Of a stretch of DNA of 64,000 bases, positions 13,872 to 55,279 are shown in pieces. How positions within the stretch are numbered: position 1 is the first letter of the stretch; every line of letters begins with the position of its first letter. A model generated the notes under the pieces. That model was not told where the DNA came from. It was given only the letters and a program-made list of their open reading frames with translations, and made no database searches. This DNA comes from Antedon mediterranea. Its lineage: Eukaryota > Echinodermata > Crinoidea > Comatulida > Antedonidae. Where the stretch lies: contig NC_092674.1 of NCBI RefSeq assembly GCF_964355755.1, forward strand, positions 26,958,001 through 27,022,000. The letters are read 5' to 3'. Position numbers and translations under genes: made by a program.

Positions 13872-14212
13872 TATCTACATAGATGAATAAAAACAGATCA
13901 TTAAGCTTGGTTCTCACTAGGACTATAACCAATCACAGTTGATCTGTTGCGGATTGTTCAAATTACTAAAAAGTCAGTGCGTTCGGCATAGAAAAAAAAA
14001 CACCAATCTTTATAGTGTACTCTACTTTTCTTCAAATTTGGAGCAAGTTTCTGGAACCCTCTGCCAATAGACTTAAGGGAACTAATATCGATAGATCTAT
14101 TTAAGAAGTGAGAATGTGTGTCCCTATACAGAAATGTATTACTAGACTAGCAGTAGTATATTAAGACAACAAGTTTTGAAGGAAGAAGGTACAGTGCAGT
14201 AAGACCAGACAC

Positions 14213-14311
14213 TAAATATGGTAGTGATATTCCCAAATATAGTAGTAAAATTACATTATCATGTCCATATATGGGCACATAACATTTTTTTGTCACATCA
14301 AGTTTGATAGT
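14213..14311. mobile_element. Palindromic MITE family A, decayed copy
   Basis: Contains the family core (ATATGGTAGTGATAT ... CATGTCCATATATGGGCACAT ... AGTTTGATAGT) but has lost the left arm. It lies in the first intron of C1q copy 2 and is absent from copy 1, so it inserted after the duplication or was lost from the other copy. Confidence 0.75.
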
Positions 14312-16666: not shown

Positions 16667-19600
16667 ATGAGAAGCAGAAGTAATTCAGGTGTTCGCCTGG
16701 ACTTTTATAACAGGCTGGTATCAAACACAATATTATCCCACCAGGTACGTACTGTAGAGTGGCTAGAGCCAGGCCTAGCTAGCTAGAGTAGGATGGGGCA
16801 TTAGGCTCCAGTTTTACCATTCTTGCTTCTCATAATAACAACTAGGCCTAATAATATAGAACAAAGAATCCATTAATTAAATAACTTTATTAAACTAGAC
16901 TAGGCTAGCTAGCCTATTTTGATTTTTAAGAAAAGTTTAATTTAATTATTATTATACTATATTACTTTATTATTATAGAATCCGGTTACTGGACTTTTAC
17001 CAGCCAGCACCAATGAGAGTGATGCATGGGTCCGTGACAATGTGTACAGTATTATGGCTGTGTGGGGGTTAGCGCTAGCTTATAGGAAGCAGGCTGATTT
17101 AGACGAGGACAGAGCAAAAGCATATGAACTTGAACAGGTAAGTGAGCCATTCCATGCCAAATCAAATATTTTACCAACAATTCATCATAGTCATCATCTC
17201 AGATATTGCTAAAAATAAAATCACATGTACCTTTATAGAGCTCTTAAAAACTGTGTGTATAAATACAAATTGATCGATCTCGTACCACTCCAAATGTCAA
17301 ATTTAATATCTTGCTATCTTTATGGCAGCCTTTGCAAGTTTACATTTATAAAAAATAATCATTGACCTAAAGCTCTGTTTACACTATTAAATTAGTTTGA
17401 CAAAAAAGGTGTGATGTCCCCAAATATGGTAGTGATATGATATCATCGTCATGTCCATGTATGGGCACATCACATTTGTTTGTCACATAAAGTTTGATAG
17501 TGTCGACATAGCTTTACAAATATTTAATTTGATATTTAATGTGTATTTTGAAAAAAGGTGTGATGTGCCCAAATATGGTAGTGATATGGTATCATATATG
17601 AGCACATCACATTTGCAAGTCACATAAAGTTTGATAATGTAGACAGAGGTTTACAAATATTTAGTTGGATATTTAATGTGTATTTTGAAAAAAGGTGTGA
17701 TGTGCCCAAATATGGTAGTGATATGATATCATCATGTCCATATATGGGCACATCACATTTGTGTTGTCACGTTTGTCACATAAAGTTTGATACCTGTAGT
17801 GTAGACAGAGCTTTACAAATATTTAATTTGTATGTGTATTTTGATATTTGATTACTTGTTACAGAGAGTGGTAAAACTAATGAGAGGGTTACTGATGGCC
17901 ATGATGAGGCAAGGCAGTAAACTAGAAGCTTTCAAACAAACTCAAAGTCCTCAAGATTCACTCCATGCTAAGTTCAGCACTCAGACTGGTCACACTTGTG
18001 TTGGGGACAACGAATGGGGACATCTTCAAATAGATGCAACGTCACTCTACCTCCTAATGCTGTCACAAATGACTGCTTCAGGTACTTTTGTTTTTTTTAA
18101 ATCTCCCTTTTATTTATAGATTAAAGATGTATTTTTCCTTTAAAAAAAACATGGAAAATTGAAAAATAAAGATTAATGAAATCAGACTTTAAATAGGTCA
18201 TTTTGCAGTTTTAATAATGTTATCGTTTCCATAAACAAAAAAAACATGGAAAAATGAAAAATAAAGATTAATGAAATCAGACTTTAAATAGGTCATTTTT
18301 CAGTTTTAATAATGTTATCGTTTCCATAAACAAAAACATTTTCTGAAGACAAAATAAACGTTTAAATTCAACCAAAACCACATTGGGTGGCAGGCCAATC
18401 TGACTATATTTTTGAGATACTATTAATTAATAATATAATATTAATTCAATCACTATTATGTGAAAGTAAAATGGCATATTAAAAAAAAATGTTTTTTTTT
18501 TTATTAGGAGGACAATATATCTGTAATATATTTATTTCTATAATATTTTAATCTAAGTTATCATATTTTAGGGTTACAGATTATCTTTAGTCTTGATGAG
18601 GTGGCATTCATACAGAATCTAGTCTTTTACATCCAGTCTGCATACAGAATTCCGGACTACGGGATCTGGGAAAGGGGAGATAAGATGAATCATGGCTTAC
18701 CAGAACTAAATGCCAGCTCAATAGGAATGGCAAAGGTGAGAAATCGACACACGAGTATAAATGTGTACCATGGTGAATTATGTGTGGTATAAATGTGTAC
18801 CATGGTGAATTATGTGTGGTATAAATGTGTACCATGGTGAATTATGTGTGGTATAAATGTGTACCATGGTGAATTATGTGTGGTATAAATGTGTACCATG
18901 GTGAATTATGTGTGGTATAAATGTGTACCATGGTGAATTATGTGTGGTATAAATGTGTACCATGGTGAATTATGTGTGGTATAAATGTGTACCATGGTGA
19001 ATTATGTGTGGTATAAATGTGTACCATGGTGAATTATGTGTGGTATAAATGTGTACCATGGTGAATTATATGTGGTATAAATGTGTACCATGGTGAATTA
19101 TGTATACGAAAGATTGTCCCACAAAAAATATGGATAAAATCAATAAGCTATTTTGTACTATTCAACCCCCTCCCCCCCCCCCCCCCAAAAAAAAAAAAAA
19201 AAAATTTCTGTCATAAAAAAATACCTAATAAACAGTCACATTTAATCAACCTATTGACTTCCTCATTCGAATGTCCTCTTATTACCCACACTCCCCAGGA
19301 AAAAAATAATTTCTGTTATAAAAGAAAAAATAAACAGTAACATTTAATCAACCCATTGACTTCTATAATTCCTAAATCTCATGTTTTCTTTGATTTTAGG
19401 CTGCCATGGAAGCTATTAACGAACTTGATCTGTATGGGGCTAGAGGAGGTGCTGCGTCAGTGATACACGTGCAGTCTGATCACATTGCATGCTGTCAGGC
19501 TATTCTACACTCTATGCTACCAAAAGAATCCAGTTCAAAGGTTAGTTATTATCGCAGAATTGGTATCATTTACAACAATTTGGATGAGAACTTTAACCGT

Positions 19601-22600
19601 ATCAAAAAAATAGTGAAGACCATTTGATAGGAAAGCTTTTAGTCTTGGCCTTTCTTAATTAATTACATAAACTGACCCTAAGCCAAAATAGCATGGTAAA
19701 AAGTCTATGCAAGGTGCCTTAATAGAAACCCTGCTTATTTCTTAAAGCTCGGTCTACACTATCAAACTTAATGTTACAAAAAATGTGATGTGCCCATATA
19801 TGGACATGATGATGTCATATCACTACCATATTTGAGCATATCACTACCATATTTGAGCATATCACTACCATATTTGAGCACAACGCTTTTTTGTCAAACT
19901 AGTTTGATAGTGTAGACAGAGTTTAAGATATGCACATATATATAGTAAATTTATTTTTATTTTTGTAATTAAATAATCATTTCATCCTCGAGCCGTTTTT
20001 TTCTCTTTTTTTAAAGGAAATTGATGCTGGTTTATTAAGCGTAATAGGTTTCCCAGCATTCTCCTGCGATGATGAGAGCTTAGTAAATGTTACACGAGAT
20101 CAGATAATTGATAAATTAGACGGACAGTACGGGTGTAAGCGATTCCTGAGAGACGGATACAAAACGCCAAAAGAGGTAAACCTATTATAATTCACAGTAA
20201 TCACAAGTTTGTGCCATACAGGCTTTGAAACCACAATATATAATGAAATGTGATCGTTTCAATTAATTTAATTAAATTTCAATATATTATCGGGTATAGA
20301 ATTTATTCTGTGCCTGTAGTGTTCGAAAAATTGATATGTTATATTATTTGCTGTGCATTTCTGGTTAAATTAACAGAAACATACTATAATGCTCTGTTAT
20401 CACAACTTTACACACTAAAGGCTTTGAAACTCCATAGAGGAACAATATTGCAAAACAAATCCCATACATTTCAGATTTATGTCAGAATCGTTGCTTTAGC
20501 CAGTAGGTCTCACTTTGTAAATTATGAATTTGTTATTGTATGCAAATATTACCACAACATCAGCCTTATATTTTGTTTCTTCTAGGATCCCAATAGACTA
20601 TACTACGAACCAGCAGAGCTCAAGATATTTGAGAATATTGAGTGTGAATGGCCCTTATTTTGGACGTATTTGGTGTTGGATGGCGTATTCCGTGGTAACA
20701 AAGAGTTAGTTGATAAATACAGTGAAAAGCTTGATAGCAAATTAGTTAGACTGGAGAATGGAATTAAAGGTGTACCAGAGCTTTACTATGTACCAGAGGA
20801 AAAGGTAAATAGGAAGGAAACTTTCAATGTGACCTATGACCTATGATAAATTGCCAATGGTTCAGTCATGGCGCTTCCTTTGTTTTTCAGAACTATATAC
20901 GTGGTGTACCGCAAACTTATATCAACATTATTTTGTCATTTCTTGTAATATTGCTTAGGTCGACTTAGAGTATAAAAATCCCCATAGTCAAAAGCGTGAG
21001 GCCGGAGGAAAGATGCCACACATGTGGGGGCAGTCTTTATACATCTTAGGCTGTCTGTTAAAGGAGAAGTTTTTAGCACCGGGCGAGATTGATCCTCTAA
21101 ATCGTCGTTTTTCAACTGAACCAAAACCAGACCTCGTTGTCCAAGGTAAGAGAAACAAGAGAAGGAGGCATTTTTAAAGCTCTCTCTACACTATCAAAGT
21201 AAACCAAATATGGTAGTGATATGACATCATCATGTCCATAAATGGGAAAAATATCCTCATTAAAATTGAGCAGCCAAATTGCAGGAAAACCATGACATTG
21301 CATATTGATATTTAGTATTTTAATCAAAGACTTTCTAATATAAATTGTTCATTTTGAGTTAAAAAAACAATTTCTTATTATTTTTAATACAGTATTTCTT
21401 TTTCAATTCACAAATCTTAAAAATACAAATATTTGATTACAAATTGGTTTGTTTACAGTTGTTTTACTTGCTGAAAATGAAGAAATAAAACAGGCACTTG
21501 CTGATAAAAATATTCCAGTGGAGACCGTCTCTGAGGTATCCCCAATCCAAATTCACCCAGCCAGGGTGTTGAGCCAGCTTTACAAAAGACTTGGTAACAA
21601 TATTTGTTTGTATATAAAAAAAATTATTTTCAGATATTTGTCGTACACCATAGAATTATTGATATATATAATAAAGTTTTCAAATAATAAGAAAAATTAA
21701 GTAAATAAATGATATGTTTTTTTTACCATAACAGTTATTTGATGACTACACTTAAATTGTAGATATAAACATGGTTTTTTTAAATAAATTTTATCAATAT
21801 AGGACGGAGTGACAAACTCGGGTTGACAGGATGTCCAGTGCAATCAGTGGGTTTACTTAGTACAAGTAAACTGTACGTTCTTCATGATAAAACGTTAGCG
21901 TTTGTCCCGCAGGTAAGAAAAAAATTTCCAAAATCAATTAATCAATTAAATAAAAATGTGTCTAAAATGAAAAAAAAGTTTATGAATATTACAGCATGCA
22001 AAGTTTCAACTGAACGCAACTCAAAATTGTATAATTTTTATTATTTAGAACTAAAATTAATGTATATTTTTTTAGTTTTTAGACCAACAGCAATTTTACT
22101 TGGCTCTTGATGTAAATCTGTTAGTTGATATATTTCATCATGATGTTGCGTACCTTCGGTATAACTGGCGCGAGGTCGGCCGTCCAACGTTAGTTATGAC
22201 TGTAACTCACAGTATGTTCGGTAAGTAAAAGATTTATTTCATTGAATTATGTATTATGATTTCAATTTAATATTTAAGAAATATAGTACACAGGTTTTTT
22301 GATTATTATTATTTTTGTTAAGTACACAACTGAATTGAACATAGGCTTTACTATCTTGTACCCCTAATTTTTTTCTTTGTTGGCCCTAGCATTTAGTAGA
22401 AATATATCCATAATGATTGTACAATAACACGCATATATCATATAAATATAATATATAAAATGAATGAGATTAAATTTGTTTAAATAATTAAATTTCTAGA
22501 GAACATGCAACTGCAATCGGCTCTTCTGGCCACTATCCGTAAAGTGCGTACAGGATATTTCAGTGGGGTGCAAGTACTTATGCGAAGTCTGTCTGACTTT

Positions 22601-25600
22601 TTAAGCACAGCTTGTGTCAATCAATTAACTTTCTTAGAATCATCAGGTATGTTTATTATGTATGCATCCAACAACCTATGCTTTTAAACCTCGTCTCAAA
22701 AAAATAAATTCAGGAACTGTGATATGATTTGGACCAAGAACCATGTATAAGCAAGCATGTCACAGCATGCATAAGATAAAATACAAAGTATTTGTAAAAA
22801 ATCTATTTTTAAAATTTATTTTAAAATAGACTTGCTGCTTTTTGATTTTTCGCTGAAAAAAATGAACAATGGTTGTAAAAACTTACAAAGATATTGAATT
22901 TTGTGAAAGAATTTAGTCTAAATTTATGATATTGAAACAAAGTGCAATGTTTATTAAAGACTTTGACCAGTGAGGATAGATACATTGATAACAATGATAA
23001 CATTTTGCGCAAATAGCTAAACTAGCTTTTAAGCTCTGTCTACATTATCAAACTTTATGCAACAAAAAAACACCATGACGTCATATCACTACCATATTTG
23101 GGCACATCAAACTTTTTTGTAAAAACTAGTTTGATAGTGTGGACAGAGCTTTAGGCTTAGCAAAGAATGTATGAAAATAATGTGATTTATCCTCTCTGAT
23201 TCTTCAATATGTTATATGAATGAACTTTACTCATCAGCAAAACCTGATGCTCTAATAAGTACACTGAACGACCGACATCCCTCCCTGAACCTTCTCAGCA
23301 CTAAAGTGTCGTTAACTGAATCTAATTGGAGCCAAAAAACTGATAGACTTCGCAAACGTCGAATGTCTGGCACCATTCATCAGTTGCTGCAACGGACACG
23401 CTCCATTGATCTTGGCGAGTCGCCAGGTAGGCCTGTAGCAGATTGCCAAATGGATGAAAGCTAGGATCATACACACTTTTAAAAAGCTATCATATTTAAT
23501 TTTATACTATATCTAACTCAAATTTTAACATATAGTATTTCAGTTTATTCTTTACTATTCCATGAACTTTCTACTGTTCTAATACGAATCTATTGCGCTT
23601 ATTATACCAATACGCAAGAAATTTGTAATAGGTAGCAGGTAAAATGTCTGCAGACTCGGCCTGTAAAAAAAAAATATATAAAAAAAAGATAACACAATCC
23701 AATTCAATGTTACTTTAGATTCTAAGCAATTTTTAAACATAAACAAAGAAAATTTAAGTTTAAATTTTAGAATTAAAAAGCTGCTTCTTTATAACACCCA
23801 TTGAGGGCCCTTTTCTGGGTCAGATTCACGATCGTAGCGCCATCAAATTAATACATCCTCATCTATAGCATAAATTTGATGTATTGTCCCTTTGACTAAT
23901 TCCAACAAATTTTTTTTTAAATATTTCGAAAAAAGGGGGTATCATATCATAATAGTTATTAACTTTCACCAAAAATTAGTCAAAAAAAAAAAAATTTAAC
24001 CGAAATACAGACGTTTTTTTGTTCAAAACGTGACGATTTTCCAGACGAAATGTAATCAAATTAATATACCTGTTAATTACGTAACCTTGTTGTTTTTGGC
24101 TCGAATTTTCGACTTAAGATGGATAACTTTAATATTACTTTGATATGGCCAATTTAAATTTAGAATATTTTTTTTTCATTTTTTGCGTTTCAAGGGACAA
24201 TACATCTTTTAAACAGCTTTTTATTATTGTTGTTTATCATTATGATGGCTTTAAGTGTGTTTGATCTGTTTGTGTTTCTTTGTTACACATCCTTTCCTGT
24301 TACTGCCTGGAATAATATAATACAAAGTTTATTGTGGTAAAAGCTAACAAATGTATTTATTTTATTTATAAATTTTCATTTATTAGAATGAAAAGAAATG
24401 ATGGTTGGAGGATTGAGGTTATTTCTTGCCTTTTTTAACCAACATTAACAATTTATTCCAAATTTTTTTTTATGATTTGCCAAAATACCATGAAGTGTAG
24501 CAAAAGTTTAATACTTGTGTTCATAAATAAAAGGCAGTGAGAAATTGTTCTTTGTAAATGTTAACAAAAAAAATGTATGTTGTGAAATATTTCAATCCTC
24601 CACTGATCATAAAGTGCATGTTTGGGTGTGCTCTTGCTTGCATGTGATTCCTTCTATATTGATGTAATTCTAGGCAATTATAAAAGTATTATACAGCAGC
24701 TTGATGATATGAATGATAATGATTGGTGCCCAATGCCATTCCTGCCTAGCATTAGGAAAGTAAATCCGTTAAAGCCACTGCCACGAAATATCACTGATCC
24801 TACGTTAGATCTAATCTCAAACATGACAAAAACTGCATCACAAACAAAGAGTCCGGTGTCGGGTATAATTCAACAAACACGTCTGATTAGCCGAACAGGT
24901 ATTTCTATTTTGTTTGTGAATATTTCTTTAAAGGTTCAATCCTGAGATTAGAAGAAGTCTTTGTACAATACTTAACATATCATTGCCATAGGGGCTTGCT
25001 TTAAAGTTTTGTCCACACTATCCAAAAAATGTGATGTGCTCAAATATGGTAGTGACATGACATCATCATGTCCGTATATGGGCACATTTTTTTTGTCGCA
25101 TTAAGTTTGATAGTGGAGACGGAGCTTTAGACGTCTTGCACTAGAAGTTCTTGCTTTTGTAGTTGTGAAAATGTTGTTTTTGTTAATACAGCAATTAATG
25201 AAAGATTTGTTTAGTTTTAAATTAATCTCTTTATCATTTTCCTTAGAGTAAACTATTTTATTTTGTACTTTCATTTGCATCTTGAAAAACAATTGCTTTT
25301 TGTATTTTCAAAGAAACAATTTATACTTATACAAAATAATTATTATTTTTAGCATAGCATAAATAATTCAAAATTATCTAAAATAAATTTTTATCATATT
25401 TTAAAATAATTCATAATTCATACTTACAAAATTATTATTATTAATTATCATGTCATCATACTTTTTCATCATATTTGTAATTGTCACACTGCCTGTAAAC
25501 AATCATAAAAAAAATTTTTTTATTTAGATATAAAATTCATTATTAGAAATCATAGTTATAATGATGACCATTGTGATATTTGTGTTAAATAAAAGTTTAA

Positions 25601-28600: not shown

Positions 28601-31600
28601 CGTTGATACGACACACAGCGGGTATGCTAGGCAAGCAAGTGGAACAGTTAGCGCAGGCAGTTACTGATTTACTTGTCCGTCAGAAGCAGTTGTCTGTAGG
28701 CTTGCCTCCAGAGCCTAGAGAGGTCATCATCACAGCACCATTGTCACCAGAGGAACTTCAGAAGATCATATCAGAAGCATGTGGACAAGACAGTGGGTCT
28801 GCAGTTCTTACACAAGTAAGGAACAGATTTATTTTGACCCTGCTGAACTACTTGTACATTCAATAATATGATCTTTCCAAAATGGTCACGTCATGCAGTA
28901 CATAACCTGACTTTCTTTGCTTCGTCAGTAACACTAACAGGGCCTTTTTAAGGACTGAGTGACCTCTGACCCTTCTGAACTACTTGTTGCACATTCAATA
29001 ATATGATCTTTTCCAAAGGGTCACGTCATGCAGTACATAACCTGCCTTTCTTTGCTTCGTCAGTAACAGGGCCTTTATGGACTGAGTGACCTCTGACCCT
29101 GCTGGATTATTGCAAAGATGCAGTACATTACCTGGCTTTTTTTCATTTACCAATTTTCAAATTTCTTGACAAAATATACTTTTGTAAACTTTCAATAGGA
29201 ATTGTTGCAATATTTAGCAATGTTCATTAGGACCGAACCAAAACTCTTTCAAGAAATGCTTCGTCTTCGTATCGGTCTCATCATCCAGATCATGTGCTCT
29301 GAATTGGCTCGCGCCCTTAGCTGTTCAGGTAAATCCAGTTCGATCATTTGAGCGTTAAGATAAATAGGGAGGTGTAGGCTGAAAATGTCAGTTGTTTAAA
29401 ATATAATCATGTATATGGTGACTTATTTCTTACTGAATTTCAGCTGAAGATGCATATGAACAACTAATGGCGCTAAGTCCATTTGAAATGAAAGGACTAC
29501 TACATCACATCTTGAGTGGCAGAGAATTTGGTGTAACTACAGGTATGAAAAAAAAATTCTGATTTACACAGTAGTGATACGAAATTTGCTGTCTGGTGTA
29601 TGAGTTGCAGTAGTTAAGTGGTTAAGACATTTTCCATAAGAAAAACTACCAGTCCACTCTACTCTACTCGGCTGTATATGAGTATCTGGTTAAAAAATAC
29701 TAAGGAGGGTTAAGGCAGTGTGGAAAGGAACTGACCACCCTACCATATAATGCTGAGAGGCTTAGTACCATGAACTCCTAACAGCTTATACTCTCTGTTC
29801 AGAATGAACACGGAACTCAACTTTATACTGTAGTGTTTTTATGAGTTTTTAGCTCTTCCATAATTCAAAATTATTTGCTAGAATTTCTAAATTGAATGTA
29901 TCTATTTTACAGTAAGTAATGCATCTGCCTTAAAGGAGCGCCAGTTATCTATTGTGACATCAAGTAAAGAAGAAATTATTGGCATGTCACAACTTAAAAA
30001 GGAAATGACGGTAAGTATTTACCCAGCAGTTTCTGTTATTGTGACTATATTAAGTAAATGTGGTTTTAACCAGCAGTTTCTATTAGTGTGACCATAGTAT
30101 TATCTGTGGTTTTACCCAGCAGTTTCTATTATTGTGACTACATTAAGTAACTGGTTTTACCCAGCAGTTTCTATTACTGTGACTACATTAAGTAACTGTG
30201 GTTTTACCCAGCAGTTTCTATTATTGTGACTACATTAAGTAACTGGTTTTATCCAGCAGTTTCTATTATTGTGACTACATTAAGTAACTGTGGTTTTACC
30301 CAGCAGTTTCTATTACTGTGACTACATTAAGTAACTCTGGTTTTACCCAGCAGTTTCTATTACTGTGACTACATTAAGTAACTGTGGTTTTACCCAGCAG
30401 TTTCTATTACTGTGACTACATTAAGTAACTGGTTTTACCCAGCAGTTTCTATTACTGTGACTACATTAAGTAACTATGCTTTTACTCAGCAGTTTCTATT
30501 ACTGTGACTACATTAAGTAATTGTGGTTTTACATTACATTACTATGTGTAAAACATGTTAATCTTTACAAGTTCAAAGTTTTTTTAATGATTAAGTGTCA
30601 AATAACGCTCTCTGGAGGATTTAGTAATATTTTCACAAACAATTGTTCTATTGACCTTGATTGTTTAAAAAAAATTAAATTAAATGTTTCATATTATAGC
30701 TAATGCATATTATAACTACACAGGCAGCTGGCCAGATGATATGATTTTGCAAATATTTTGTATATCAATCATATATTTATGATGTGGAGTACTCTCTTTT
30801 AATGAAGTCCATGGCTGATTATGAGTTGTTGCAATAAGTTTTTCTGGCTATTAATACATTTGTTCAACTTATAATTATTACTGAATAATGAAAACATTTC
30901 TTCTGGTTTCGATTCGTATAATAATATAAGTAGTTCTTTGATAGTAAACCAATAAAACTTACGTTGGCAAGACAGTTTCGTCTAGCTGTCAGCTTGACTT
31001 CTTCAGTTGCTATGATGCGTTATGGCGCCGATTGGTCTCCTTTCCAGCCACTAGATGATTTTGTTGTGTAGCCTAGGGGACCAGTCGTCGTCAGAAGCTG
31101 ATCGTAAATGTGAGATAGTTGGTGCGCGCCTTCGTCTCTATTCATCTTTGTATTTTTATTTTGATGCTTTCTTTAATTTTACGTTTAAGCCAAACTTGTT
31201 CTTTGTGTAGTACCTCTATCTTATCCCAGTTAGGTATGTGGTTGTGTGTGGTCATATGGTCCGTGATTGCTGATTTATGTAAAATGGAGGACGAAACTTT
31301 CCGTGATGCACGCGTCTGCATGTTCTGTGTGTTTTCCTCAACATCTTTCTTGTGCTCTTTAATTCTGGTTTTGAGTGCCATAACGCATCATAGCAACTGA
31401 AGAAGTCAAGCTGACAGCTAGACGAAACTGTCTTGCCAACGTAAGTTTTATTGGTTTACTATCAAAGAACTACTTATATTATTACTGAATAATTTATTTT
31501 TCATAGATTTTATTATTTGTTAAATTAGTATGTTCATAGTTATTCTGTTGGTTACTGGGTTAGTGATAGTTACTAGGTTAGTTAGTCATAGATACTGGGT

Positions 31601-39305: not shown

Positions 39306-39512
39306 CTTTATCGTTTTGATTTAGCTTTTCGCTTTTATTTTGTATCTCCATTGAGATCCAGCCACTGATAGCCACAGCATTGTCATTTTTTCAGTAATTT
39401 GCCTTTGGATTTATATATATATATATTTATAATGAGAAGAATCAATTACAACGCTGCTTATAAGCACATTTACTTGTAGAATTAGCATTTACAGGTGATA
39501 TGTTTTGGAATG

Positions 39513-40034
39513 TCAGCTGTTATGTAACAATGCTTTCTTTCTGTGCCGGCAGGCGGACACAAGTTCGTTACGTTTGTTTAATGTCGATAATTCAGGGTGG
39601 CGGATGATAAATAATTTCTCTTTGAGGCAGAGATTGCATTTTTTGTTTGCGCTACTATATGCTTTAGTAGATGTCAAGATGCGCCATGAGGTTGTATAGT
39701 CTGTGTTATTGTCCTTGAGTGTCCAAATATGTTTACTGAGTTCAGTTGAGTTTCTAGAACGTGAATTACGGAATGATGAGGTGTGATTTCTGTATCGTGT
39801 TTTAAAATCATTTTCAGTTAGTCCGATATAAGTTTCCGAGGTGGATTTGTCTTTGCGTGTAACTGTGGCTTGGTATATTACAGATGATTGTAAGCAATTT
39901 CCGCTTAGCGGGCATGTGTTTTTCTGTCGGCAGTTGCATGTTTTGTTTTCTTGCGTGTTTTCCACGGATGTTGTTTCGGGCTGGTTGAGTATTCTCTTGT
40001 TGTGACTGTCTATTATCTGTTTCATATTGTTCAT
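39513..40034 (-). pseudogene. Penelope-like element C-terminal region with GIY-YIG endonuclease
   Basis: 173 codons open on the - strand. A Cys-rich linker CNCRQKNTCPLSGNC (a Penelope-type zinc-binding linker) is followed by the nuclease region: VIYQATVT, ETYIGLTENDFKTRYRNH (GIY-YIG signature with the catalytic-type Arg in KTRYRNH), SRNSTELSKHIW, SWRIL, a CNLC-EKLFII segment and a basic end. The frame is intact but lacks the whole reverse transcriptase and any recognised start, so it is a 5'-truncated remnant. A single in-frame end of this quality suggests a young insertion. Confidence 0.85.
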
Positions 40035-40053
40035 ACAACTGTAGCTAATCTAT

Positions 40054-40235
40054 ACAACCTCATGGCGCATCTTGACATCTACTAAAGCATATAGTAGCGC
40101 AAACAAAAAATGCAATCTCTGCCTCAAAGAAAAATTATTTATCATCCGCCACCCTGAATTATCGACATTAAACAAACGTAACGAACTTGTGTCCGCCTGC
40201 CGGCACAGAAAGAAAGCATTGTTACATAACAGCTG
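40054..40235 (+). pseudogene. Second copy of the Penelope-like C-terminal coding end
   Basis: Read on the + strand from YTTSWRILTS to the same ...KKALLHNS terminus as the inverted copy; only about 60 codons remain. It is followed by the element's 3' non-coding region and the hammerhead at 40322. Confidence 0.8.
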
Positions 40236-40321
40236 ACATTCCAAAACATATCACCTGTAAATGCTAATTCTACAAGTAAATGTGCTTATAAGCAGCGTTG
40301 TAATTGATTCTTCTCATTATA

Positions 40322-40370
40322 GTCTCCTGATGAGTGAGTTGCACGACTCACGAAACAAGCCTGTAGAGAC
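40322..40370 (+). ncRNA. Hammerhead ribozyme (type I, apparently intact)
   Basis: All parts of the fold are present. Stem I is GTCTC (40322-40326) with GAGAC (40366-40370), 5 bp perfect. The core is CTGATGA (40327-40333). Stem II is GTGAGT/ACTCAC, 6 bp, with loop TGCACG. GAAA is at 40352-40355. Stem III is ACA/TGT, 3 bp, with loop AGCC. The cleavage-site base is A at 40365, so cleavage is predicted between 40365 and 40366. It lies about 90 bp after the Penelope reading-frame end. Penelope-like elements are known to carry hammerheads, probably for processing of their RNA. Tertiary stem I-stem II loop contacts cannot be judged. Confidence 0.88.
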
Positions 40371-40497
40371 CAAACTGTAGTTTTTACTTCTTTTCCAGAC
40401 TTAACGTATATTTTAGCTCTACTTTACCGTATTGAGCACTTTCTAGACGGTTACATTGAACCGAACATTTATATATATTTATATATATGTATCCAAT

Positions 40498-40854: not shown

Positions 40855-41019
40855 TTAAACTCTGTCGAACTTTATGTGACAAAAAAATGTGATGTGCCCA
40901 TATATGGGTGTAATGATGTCATATCACTACCTTATTTAAGCATATCACTACCTTATTTAGGCATATCACTACCATTTAGGCACATCACAAACTAGTTTGA
41001 TAGTATAGACAGAGCTTTA
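40855..41019. mobile_element. Palindromic MITE family A, intergenic copy
   Basis: Left arm TTAAACTCTGTCGAACTTTATGTGAC, right arm ACTAGTTTGATAGTATAGACAGAGCTTTA. An internal ATATCACTACC(T/A)TATTTA(A/G)GC unit is repeated three times, as in the 19743 copy, so both may descend from one subfamily. Confidence 0.8.
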
Positions 41020-54368: not shown

Positions 54369-54482
54369 TAAGCTCTGGTCAACACTATTACAACAAAATG
54401 TGATGTGCCCATATATGGACATGATGATGTCATATCACTACCATATTTGAGCACATCACACTAGTTTGATAGTGTAGACAGA
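54369..54482. mobile_element. Palindromic MITE family A, copy downstream of FGF
   Basis: TAAGCTCTGGTCAACACTATTAC ... CTAGTTTGATAGTGTAGACAGA with the intact core CATATATGGACATGATGATGTC. Confidence 0.8.
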
Positions 54483-55279
54483 TATAAAGACTTAGATAAA
54501 TATTGAGAGTTGAACTCCGTCATGTTATTGTGTATTTGTTGCCGAAGCAGCCAGCTGCAGTAATGAAATCCGCAATAAGCAACCCAAAATTGAATAAATA
54601 TAAATTTTTTTAAACAGTAACTGAAGGTATGGTCCTTTCAAATCGCCTACCACATTACTGTGTATACCACACTCTTTGGTAATTCGTAACACAACATAGG
54701 AGTTGTTAAGTATCACGGCCATATTTTTTTTCGTAGACACTTTTCGCAGTTTCCATGAACTAATCTATATAATTTAATATTAATTGATAGCACACACAAT
54801 TGCATTTATGATTCGTTGTGACTATTCTACTTACTGGCTGGCTCATTGTGTTCTTTTATATCGTCCGTTAGTGAATTCAACATCAACAATCTGAACACTT
54901 ATAACGTCACTATAATGCTGACAAGAAAATTATATATTATAGTGTTTTTTTCTGTTAACCACTTATATTATTCAAAATTGCTACTGTGTAGCCTTTCTCC
55001 TCTAGCTGTCTAGTGATTGAATATAGTCGCTCTAAGTTCTTGAGAAAGAAACGCTTCCAACAAAAGGCACTGTTAGAATTGTACCCACTTCTTTACTTCA
55101 TTTTACTAAGCGAAAGACTCTGGCAGAACACTCTGCGACGACATCAATGCGTCGTCTAAGCGTCCGCAGACGCAAACGACGCGTCACCACGAGTCTAAAA
55201 AATTCACTTATGGAACGTCACGTATGTTTTGTTCGTGAACAGGAATGTTTAGGGTGTTTTCTAAACGCTAGTCCTAATC

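Follow-up and report, generated by a model that had tools for sequence, protein, structure and literature searches.

Minimal type I hammerhead ribozymes of Penelope-like elements were reportedly described by Cervera and de la Pena in 2014 and by Lunse et al. in 2017. Hammerheads in these elements have been in print since 2014, as cited in passages of PMC11167929 and PMC7761336. According to passages of PMC11167929, a purified Penelope-like protein cuts and extends both DNA strands and starts at two adjacent internal RNA sites. In the same passages, the hammerhead cuts only when the protein is present and is dispensable for insertion in vitro, and no reads were found that begin or end at the ribozyme cleavage site. 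Excerpts of PMC7761336 call the in vivo activity and role of Penelope hammerheads a mystery. A section of PMC3846280 describes pseudo-LTRs inverted head to head, one of which optionally bears a tail, and a part of PMC3088659 explains that a palindromic stem III allows dimeric hammerheads to form. The locus described here, from the crinoid Antedon mediterranea, reads as a further example of this known kind, a hammerhead in a Penelope-like element. The window referred to throughout is the whole 64-kb stretch of DNA that was analysed.

Anatomy and abundance of the hammerhead motif

By its letters, the segment listed first in Table 1 is a well-formed hammerhead motif. Stem I is 5 bp long (GTCTC at 40322-40326 with GAGAC at 40366-40370) and is followed by the CTGATGA core box at 40327-40333. 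Stem II pairs GTGAGT (40334-40339) with ACTCAC (40346-40351) over 6 bp around a TGCACG loop, or over 7 bp if a T-G pair is counted, and GAA lies at 40352-40354. With the A15.1-U16.1 pair included, stem III has 3 bp, namely A40355 with T40364, then C-G and A-T, around an AGCC loop (written ACA-AGCC-TGT for F1, the subfamily of the window). H17 is A40365, and the predicted 3′ cleavage product has its 5′ end at 40366 and begins GAGACCAAACTG. Both the type I core, CUGANGA...GAA-A15.1...U16.1-H17, and the three stems around it, with stem I open, are present. Over these 49 nt, stem I is free of internal loops, and no partner for a loop-loop contact was evident there by eye. The first-pass annotation had listed the boxes, stems of 5, 6 and 3 bp, a 4-nt loop and cleavage base A; on re-reading these were exact to the base, and its hammerhead fold is supported by the core and stems as well as by the shuffles and genomic copies described below.

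Table 1. Features of the hammerhead-bearing insert, in window positions
Feature	Position	Strand	Basis
Minimal type I hammerhead ribozyme; predicted cleavage between A40365 and G40366	40322..40370	+	read from letters
Hammerhead-bearing arm: 5′-truncated endonuclease end and 3′ UTR leading into ribozyme	40050..40321	+	perfect inverted repeat I1 arm
Inverted copy of arm; stops at CATTATA just before ribozyme start position, beside AT-rich sequence	39428..39699	-	inverted repeat and genome matches
Last 178 residues of ORF, GIY-YIG-like endonuclease (VIYQATV...TYIGLTENDFKTRYRNH), stop at its 3′ end	39513..40049	-	motifs by eye
Element tail, long form (A), ends GAACCGAACATT before AT-rich sequence	40371..40469	+	tails of 74 copies
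Short tail form (B), would end ACTTAACGTATA	end at about 40410	+	tails of 74 copies
AT-rich sequence at left insert end, probably target	39410..39427	.	sequence reading
AT-rich sequence at right insert end, probably target	40470..40491	.	sequence reading; most tail A and B copies abut (TA)n-like sequence

A structural scan of the 64-kb window for the core and its stems (at least 4, 4 and 2 bp for stems I, II and III) returned a single site, the one described, and 150 dinucleotide-shuffled versions gave no site at all. A 31-nt core pattern, with two letters allowed at two positions, was then matched against the host genome (354 Mb in 18 contigs). It occurred 75 times at up to three mismatches, 59 of these with none, while the reversed pattern did not occur; a tighter pattern gave 55 genomic copies, again with none for its reversed control. 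All 74 of the 75 sites that were read carry the core. Because no shuffle yielded such a site and the genome holds 75 copies against none for the reversed control, the window hammerhead is not a product of chance.

An Rfam covariance search, which the first-pass annotation had put forward as a check on the motif, gave no match above the gathering score and counts against it. At that score there was no match in the whole window, nor was the hammerhead site among the matches for 36-45 kb with E up to 10. When the 69 nt were searched alone, the sole match was to Hammerhead_3, misaligned and at 13.5 bits (gathering score, 48.5), and the Rfam type I family found no match genome-wide or in its 14 control genomes. 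Yet Rfam likewise fails to list two relatives whose cores are complete, at positions 100-660 of locus L036, so this negative carries little weight; the covariance test is insensitive for this minimal form. Divergence was likewise of little help as a test of constraint. In the 41 of 74 copies compared, which were picked by similarity to the core, it was 0.012 per site in the ribozyme versus 0.026 in the 200 nt before it and 0.037 in the 36 nt after it, a difference that was not significant. Since 54 of 311 sliding windows of 49 nt were as low as the ribozyme and the choice of copies favours the core, selection on the ribozyme is unsupported.

The surrounding Penelope-like element

The two arms of the insert form a 272-nt inverted repeat (39428-39699 and 40050-40321) that is 100% complementary and ends one base short of the ribozyme, as the first-pass annotation had indicated in stating that the other arm stops exactly before it. 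The window thus holds two 5′-truncated copies head to head, a plus copy with ribozyme and tail and a minus copy that stops before the ribozyme. In six loci (L002, L003, L007, L008, L009 and L010) an uninterrupted run in one orientation leads from the endonuclease end through UTR and ribozyme to the tail, and the place of the ribozyme after the UTR is therefore the normal one. Head-to-head inverted 5′-truncated copies, an optional tail and an AT-rich target, all features of Penelope-like elements, are present. The order of parts around the ribozyme, a GIY-YIG-like C-terminus, UTR, hammerhead, tail and mostly (TA)n, indicates that the hammerhead belongs to a Penelope-like element and bears out the link first drawn to this group.

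Domain searches added little to this assignment. Pfam recognised neither the window endonuclease nor the proteins of F1 and of a second subfamily, F2, including their reverse transcriptase. Relatives could be aligned with a stretch to which Pfam gives a weak, sub-threshold GIY-YIG score (E 0.0071), and comparison of the F1 and F2 endonuclease with this stretch by hhalign was also weak (E 0.058). No similarity was found by hhalign between the element reverse transcriptase and a Penelope-type reverse transcriptase fragment that Pfam does recognise. Searches of PDB sequences with the element protein returned nothing relevant, and its predicted structure is of low confidence (pLDDT 39). Because these searches were weak or null, membership among Penelope-like elements rests more on architecture than on domain scores.

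Related elements in the same genome extend the picture. F1 is the window subfamily; L036 belongs to F2, and the F1 rows and those of a third subfamily, F3, share 56-60% amino-acid identity with it. L036 has a 760-aa open frame at 593-2872 in which the motifs YRDDG, FYPSI and VYQATV...TYVGLTE can be read by eye; despite YRDDG, Pfam did not recognise it as a reverse transcriptase. Relatives of this ORF occur at L081, L083 and L085. Hammerheads lie at the start of the L036 ORF (582) and after it (3033), 2451 bp apart. For the window subfamily, of the hammerheads expected at the two ends of the ORF, the only ones observed were the 3′ copy and, at L012, a partial tandem. In L012, at about 390-456 on the minus strand, a hammerhead of another subfamily (CTGACGA, palindrome ACAAATTTGT) lies directly beyond the (TA)n of a window-family copy.

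When 2-6 nt were allowed between the C and G of stem III, the core pattern gave 458 genomic matches versus 51 for the reversed control. The matches listed, about the first hundred, include F1 to F3 and a further hammerhead family, F4, which has a short form of stem III (ACATGT). The sequences of stems I and II differ among F1-F4 and mostly still pair, with two or three types of pair at several positions; the exceptions are a T-T mismatch in F2, at the stem II position that adjoins the core, and mismatches in both stems of F4. Stem III is ACA-GCC-TGT in F2, which is nearly palindromic, and ACA-AATT-TGT in F3. It is a perfect palindrome in F3 (ACAAATTTGT) and in a diverged copy of F1, F1b (ACAGGCCTGT), and in the window the F1 loop has lost this perfect palindrome. 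The 3-bp stem III had at first been thought unusual, but F2 and F3 have 3 bp as well.

The ribozyme had also been described as surviving in an odd copy. The core is carried by all 74 copies read, and what is odd is its absence from the other arm. In a search for exact matches to the 18 bases preceding the ribozyme, with two letters allowed at one base, the minus arm of the window was the only genomic match not followed by the ribozyme's G. A ribozyme-less arm is therefore unusual. Its end may be a third start site for reverse transcription, or it may be an ordinary B end from which sequence was later deleted between TATA repeats. A deletion is suggested by the TATA that CATTATA before the ribozyme shares with the (TA)n after tail B, and by the finding of only one such exact-match end in the genome. 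Nevertheless, the 272-nt arms are still identical, so any deletion would be recent, and we regard the chances of a deletion at 39428 as even.

The tails point to how these copies were inserted. The 74 copies read comprise 37 with tail A, 32 with tail B and five others. Both tails are mostly, not always, followed by (TA)n-like sequence (C11:689642 is an exception). In the loci fetched, 88 tail ends were recognised (49 A and 39 B). Twelve head-to-head pairs lie less than 6.5 kb apart, a count that leaves out inserts with one recognisable tail, such as that of the window, and all 12 combine one A end with one B end. No tail-to-tail pairs occur among the 88 ends. There are three same-strand pairs, and at least one looks like a duplication: the pair at L011 was considered as a Penelope tandem and rejected, since its flanks are repeated too, as in a segmental duplication. 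The A/B pairing agrees with the optional single tail described in a section of PMC3846280 and with the two internal start sites and two-strand cutting in passages of PMC11167929. At L065, from about 1970, the tail of a window-family copy runs shortly after the ribozyme into what by eye is another Penelope-like reverse transcriptase, an arrangement resembling a template jump.

Other repeats were seen elsewhere in the window. A second perfect inverted repeat (30919-31026 and 31377-31484; 108 nt, 350 nt apart) has in each arm a hammerhead-like, non-canonical core (CTGAAGA..GAAAC), and is probably another head-to-head Penelope-like insert. Dispersed GTGATGTGCCCAAATATGGTAGTGATATGA-like repeats in both orientations (14212-14310, 17366-17760, 19778-19892, 25010-25094, 40859-40996 and 54390-54486) are perhaps a short inverted-repeat transposon. 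Tandem arrays of 32-bp and about 47-bp units occupy 18691-19170 and 30059-30614.

Proposed insertion and cleavage, and possible traces of cutting

From the observed anatomy, copies, tails and tail-type pairing, we infer how transcription, priming, cleavage and its control would proceed in what is, quite probably, a conserved minimal hammerhead of a Penelope-like retroelement. The hammerhead would sit where the 3′ UTR of one unit meets the 5′ end of the next (the pseudo-LTR/ORF junction), and transcripts would run through it into the tail. The element's protein would cut AT-rich DNA on both strands, and reverse transcription would start internally on the RNA, past the ribozyme, at either of two TATA-rich sites, giving tails A and B. 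Two cDNAs, one for each DNA end, would then be joined head to head. Since both starts fall 3′ of the cleavage site, a copy that has ribozyme and tail would come from RNA left uncut at the ribozyme; in RNA cut before reverse transcription, body and tail would be disconnected, and no more than a tail-only insert could result. A lone hammerhead most likely cuts inefficiently and is assisted by a second hammerhead paired with it or by the protein of the element. One point against the scheme as a whole is that, in the monomer, the hammerhead is not the predicted best fold.

The first-pass annotation had reasoned that a 3-bp stem III should allow single-molecule cleavage; on that view the stem, with its tetraloop, would let the monomer cleave well. 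Folding predictions do not favour monomeric cleavage of the F1 hammerhead: for the stem III hairpin by itself the predicted energy is +1.3 kcal/mol, and the hammerhead fold of the monomer (-11.6, with a 7-bp stem II) competes with a best fold of about equal energy (-11.9). The palindromic or near-palindromic stem III of the relatives would favour double hammerheads, which are the best predicted dimer fold for F1b, F2 and F3b and not exactly that for F3a. In keeping with this, a passage of PMC7761336, citing Lunse et al. 2017, allows that minimal Penelope hammerheads may self-cleave as dimers. The lack, by eye, of an evident loop-loop partner in stem I within the 49 nt and the copies that retain ribozyme and tail, which would come from uncut RNA, also argue against an efficient monomer. 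On the other side, the loop of F1 is no longer a perfect palindrome, its best dimer fold (-32.1) is not the double hammerhead (-30.3), and for F3b the best monomer fold is the hammerhead. In addition, a part of PMC7229834 likens a 2-bp stem III with tetraloop to invertebrate hammerheads, which cleave as monomers according to excerpts of PMC7761336 and PMC7229834; in that counting, with the A-U pair taken as left out, the window stem III would be 2 bp plus a tetraloop. On balance, efficient cleavage as a single molecule seems rather doubtful, and we prefer a monomer that would cut poorly unaided.

If transcripts are cut in vivo, inserts beginning at the cleavage base might be expected. A search with the 32 bases at the 5′ end of the predicted 3′ cleavage product gave 76 genomic sites; 12 have no listed core, and all 12 were read. 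Three truncated F1 copies begin at the cleavage base, L087 exactly and L089 and L090 within 2 nt, and share with their neighbour no bases, TA and GA, respectively. Other ends lie upstream of this base, by 11-12 nt (L091-L093), 5 nt (L097), 17-18 nt (L088) and 16 nt (L094-L096, copies of one another that were counted once), and L098 has an internal deletion. A search with the short tail gave 84 sites (reversed control 2), five of them in neither the core list nor the 32-base list. Four were read: the element sequence starts 25-30 nt downstream of the predicted cut in L103 and L104, and a decayed ribozyme is present in L105 and L106. The fifth (C6:24750388) was left out as part of a duplication in L009.

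In all, three of 11 independent F1 ends fall at the predicted cleavage base. Under a uniform model P would be 0.0003 to 0.005, depending on the span, but the ends are unevenly distributed and form more than one cluster, with three also 11-12 nt upstream of the cleavage site. For F2, 99 sites were compared with a list of 100 ribozyme sites; five of the 99 have no listed ribozyme, and all five were read, two being decayed. None of the three truncated F2 copies starts at the cleavage base; their ends lie upstream of it by about 8 to 17 nt, and this lessens the weight of the F1 signal. Further, four of the 14 F1 and F2 ends are found 2-4 nt inward from the stem II base, some with shared bases. With numbers this small, we regard the F1 ends as a suggestive but weak trace of what may be cutting in vivo.

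One could read more into this record. Some transcripts in germ cells might be cut at the hammerhead and the cut RNA reverse-transcribed into tail-only inserts: reverse transcription from a tail site would run off at the new 5′ end, so that the insert begins at the cleavage base, and the ends near the stem II base would reflect halting of synthesis on the ribozyme fold. If so, the hammerhead would act as a brake on transposition, and the choice of strand would be strict, with one DNA end made at site A and the other at B, as in the 12 of 12 pairs. We consider this full reading unlikely. No report of inserts beginning at a hammerhead cleavage base was found in the literature searched, which leaves most subscription papers outside it. 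With its roughly 75 similar copies, its two sharply defined tail ends and its few tail-only inserts starting at the predicted cleavage base, this genome makes the question of what Penelope hammerheads do addressable from genomic ends alone, and this approach could be used in any species with many recent copies.

A further alternative is that the ribozyme is no longer used and that its sequence is kept solely as part of a promoter, coding or protein-binding region at the junction; insertion by ribozyme mutants in vitro and the absence of reads beginning or ending at the cleavage site (passages of PMC11167929), frames open from inside the upstream L036 hammerhead into the 760-aa ORF and from within the L010 hammerhead into tail A, and the lack of clear constraint among copies speak for it, but the core is kept in four subfamilies whose stems have changed with pairing mostly kept, and three copies start at the predicted cleavage site; we find it improbable.

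Comparison with known systems

The passages on Poseidon of Anolis carolinensis (PAc) in PMC11167929 offer a close parallel to the window element, which would likewise have its hammerhead at the pseudo-LTR/ORF junction, a tail made by internal starts at two sites, AT-rich targets and a C-terminal GIY-YIG-like endonuclease. The description of PAc there names stems I and II and loop II, while the window element has a 3-bp stem III, and, unlike PAc, its reverse transcriptase is too diverged for Pfam. It shares with minimal type I Penelope hammerheads, as described in parts of PMC7761336 and PMC6155905, the type of element, a minimal motif with no evident loop I contact and, in its relatives, a palindromic or nearly palindromic stem III. 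Those hammerheads usually have no non-conserved part of helix III, whereas the window hammerhead has two pairs beyond A15.1-U16.1 and a tetraloop.

Similar to the Penelope elements of Adineta vaga in a section of PMC3846280, the window family has head-to-head inverted pseudo-LTRs with an optional tail on one. The word hammerhead does not occur in the main text of that paper, and in the window family the one-tail rule could be counted (12 of 12). A stem III with a tetraloop is shared with the metazoan retrozymes that carry canonical type I hammerheads (part of PMC7229834). Retrozymes, however, are described there as short, non-autonomous tandem repeats with contacts between loops I and II, whereas the window element has an ORF and no such contacts are evident.
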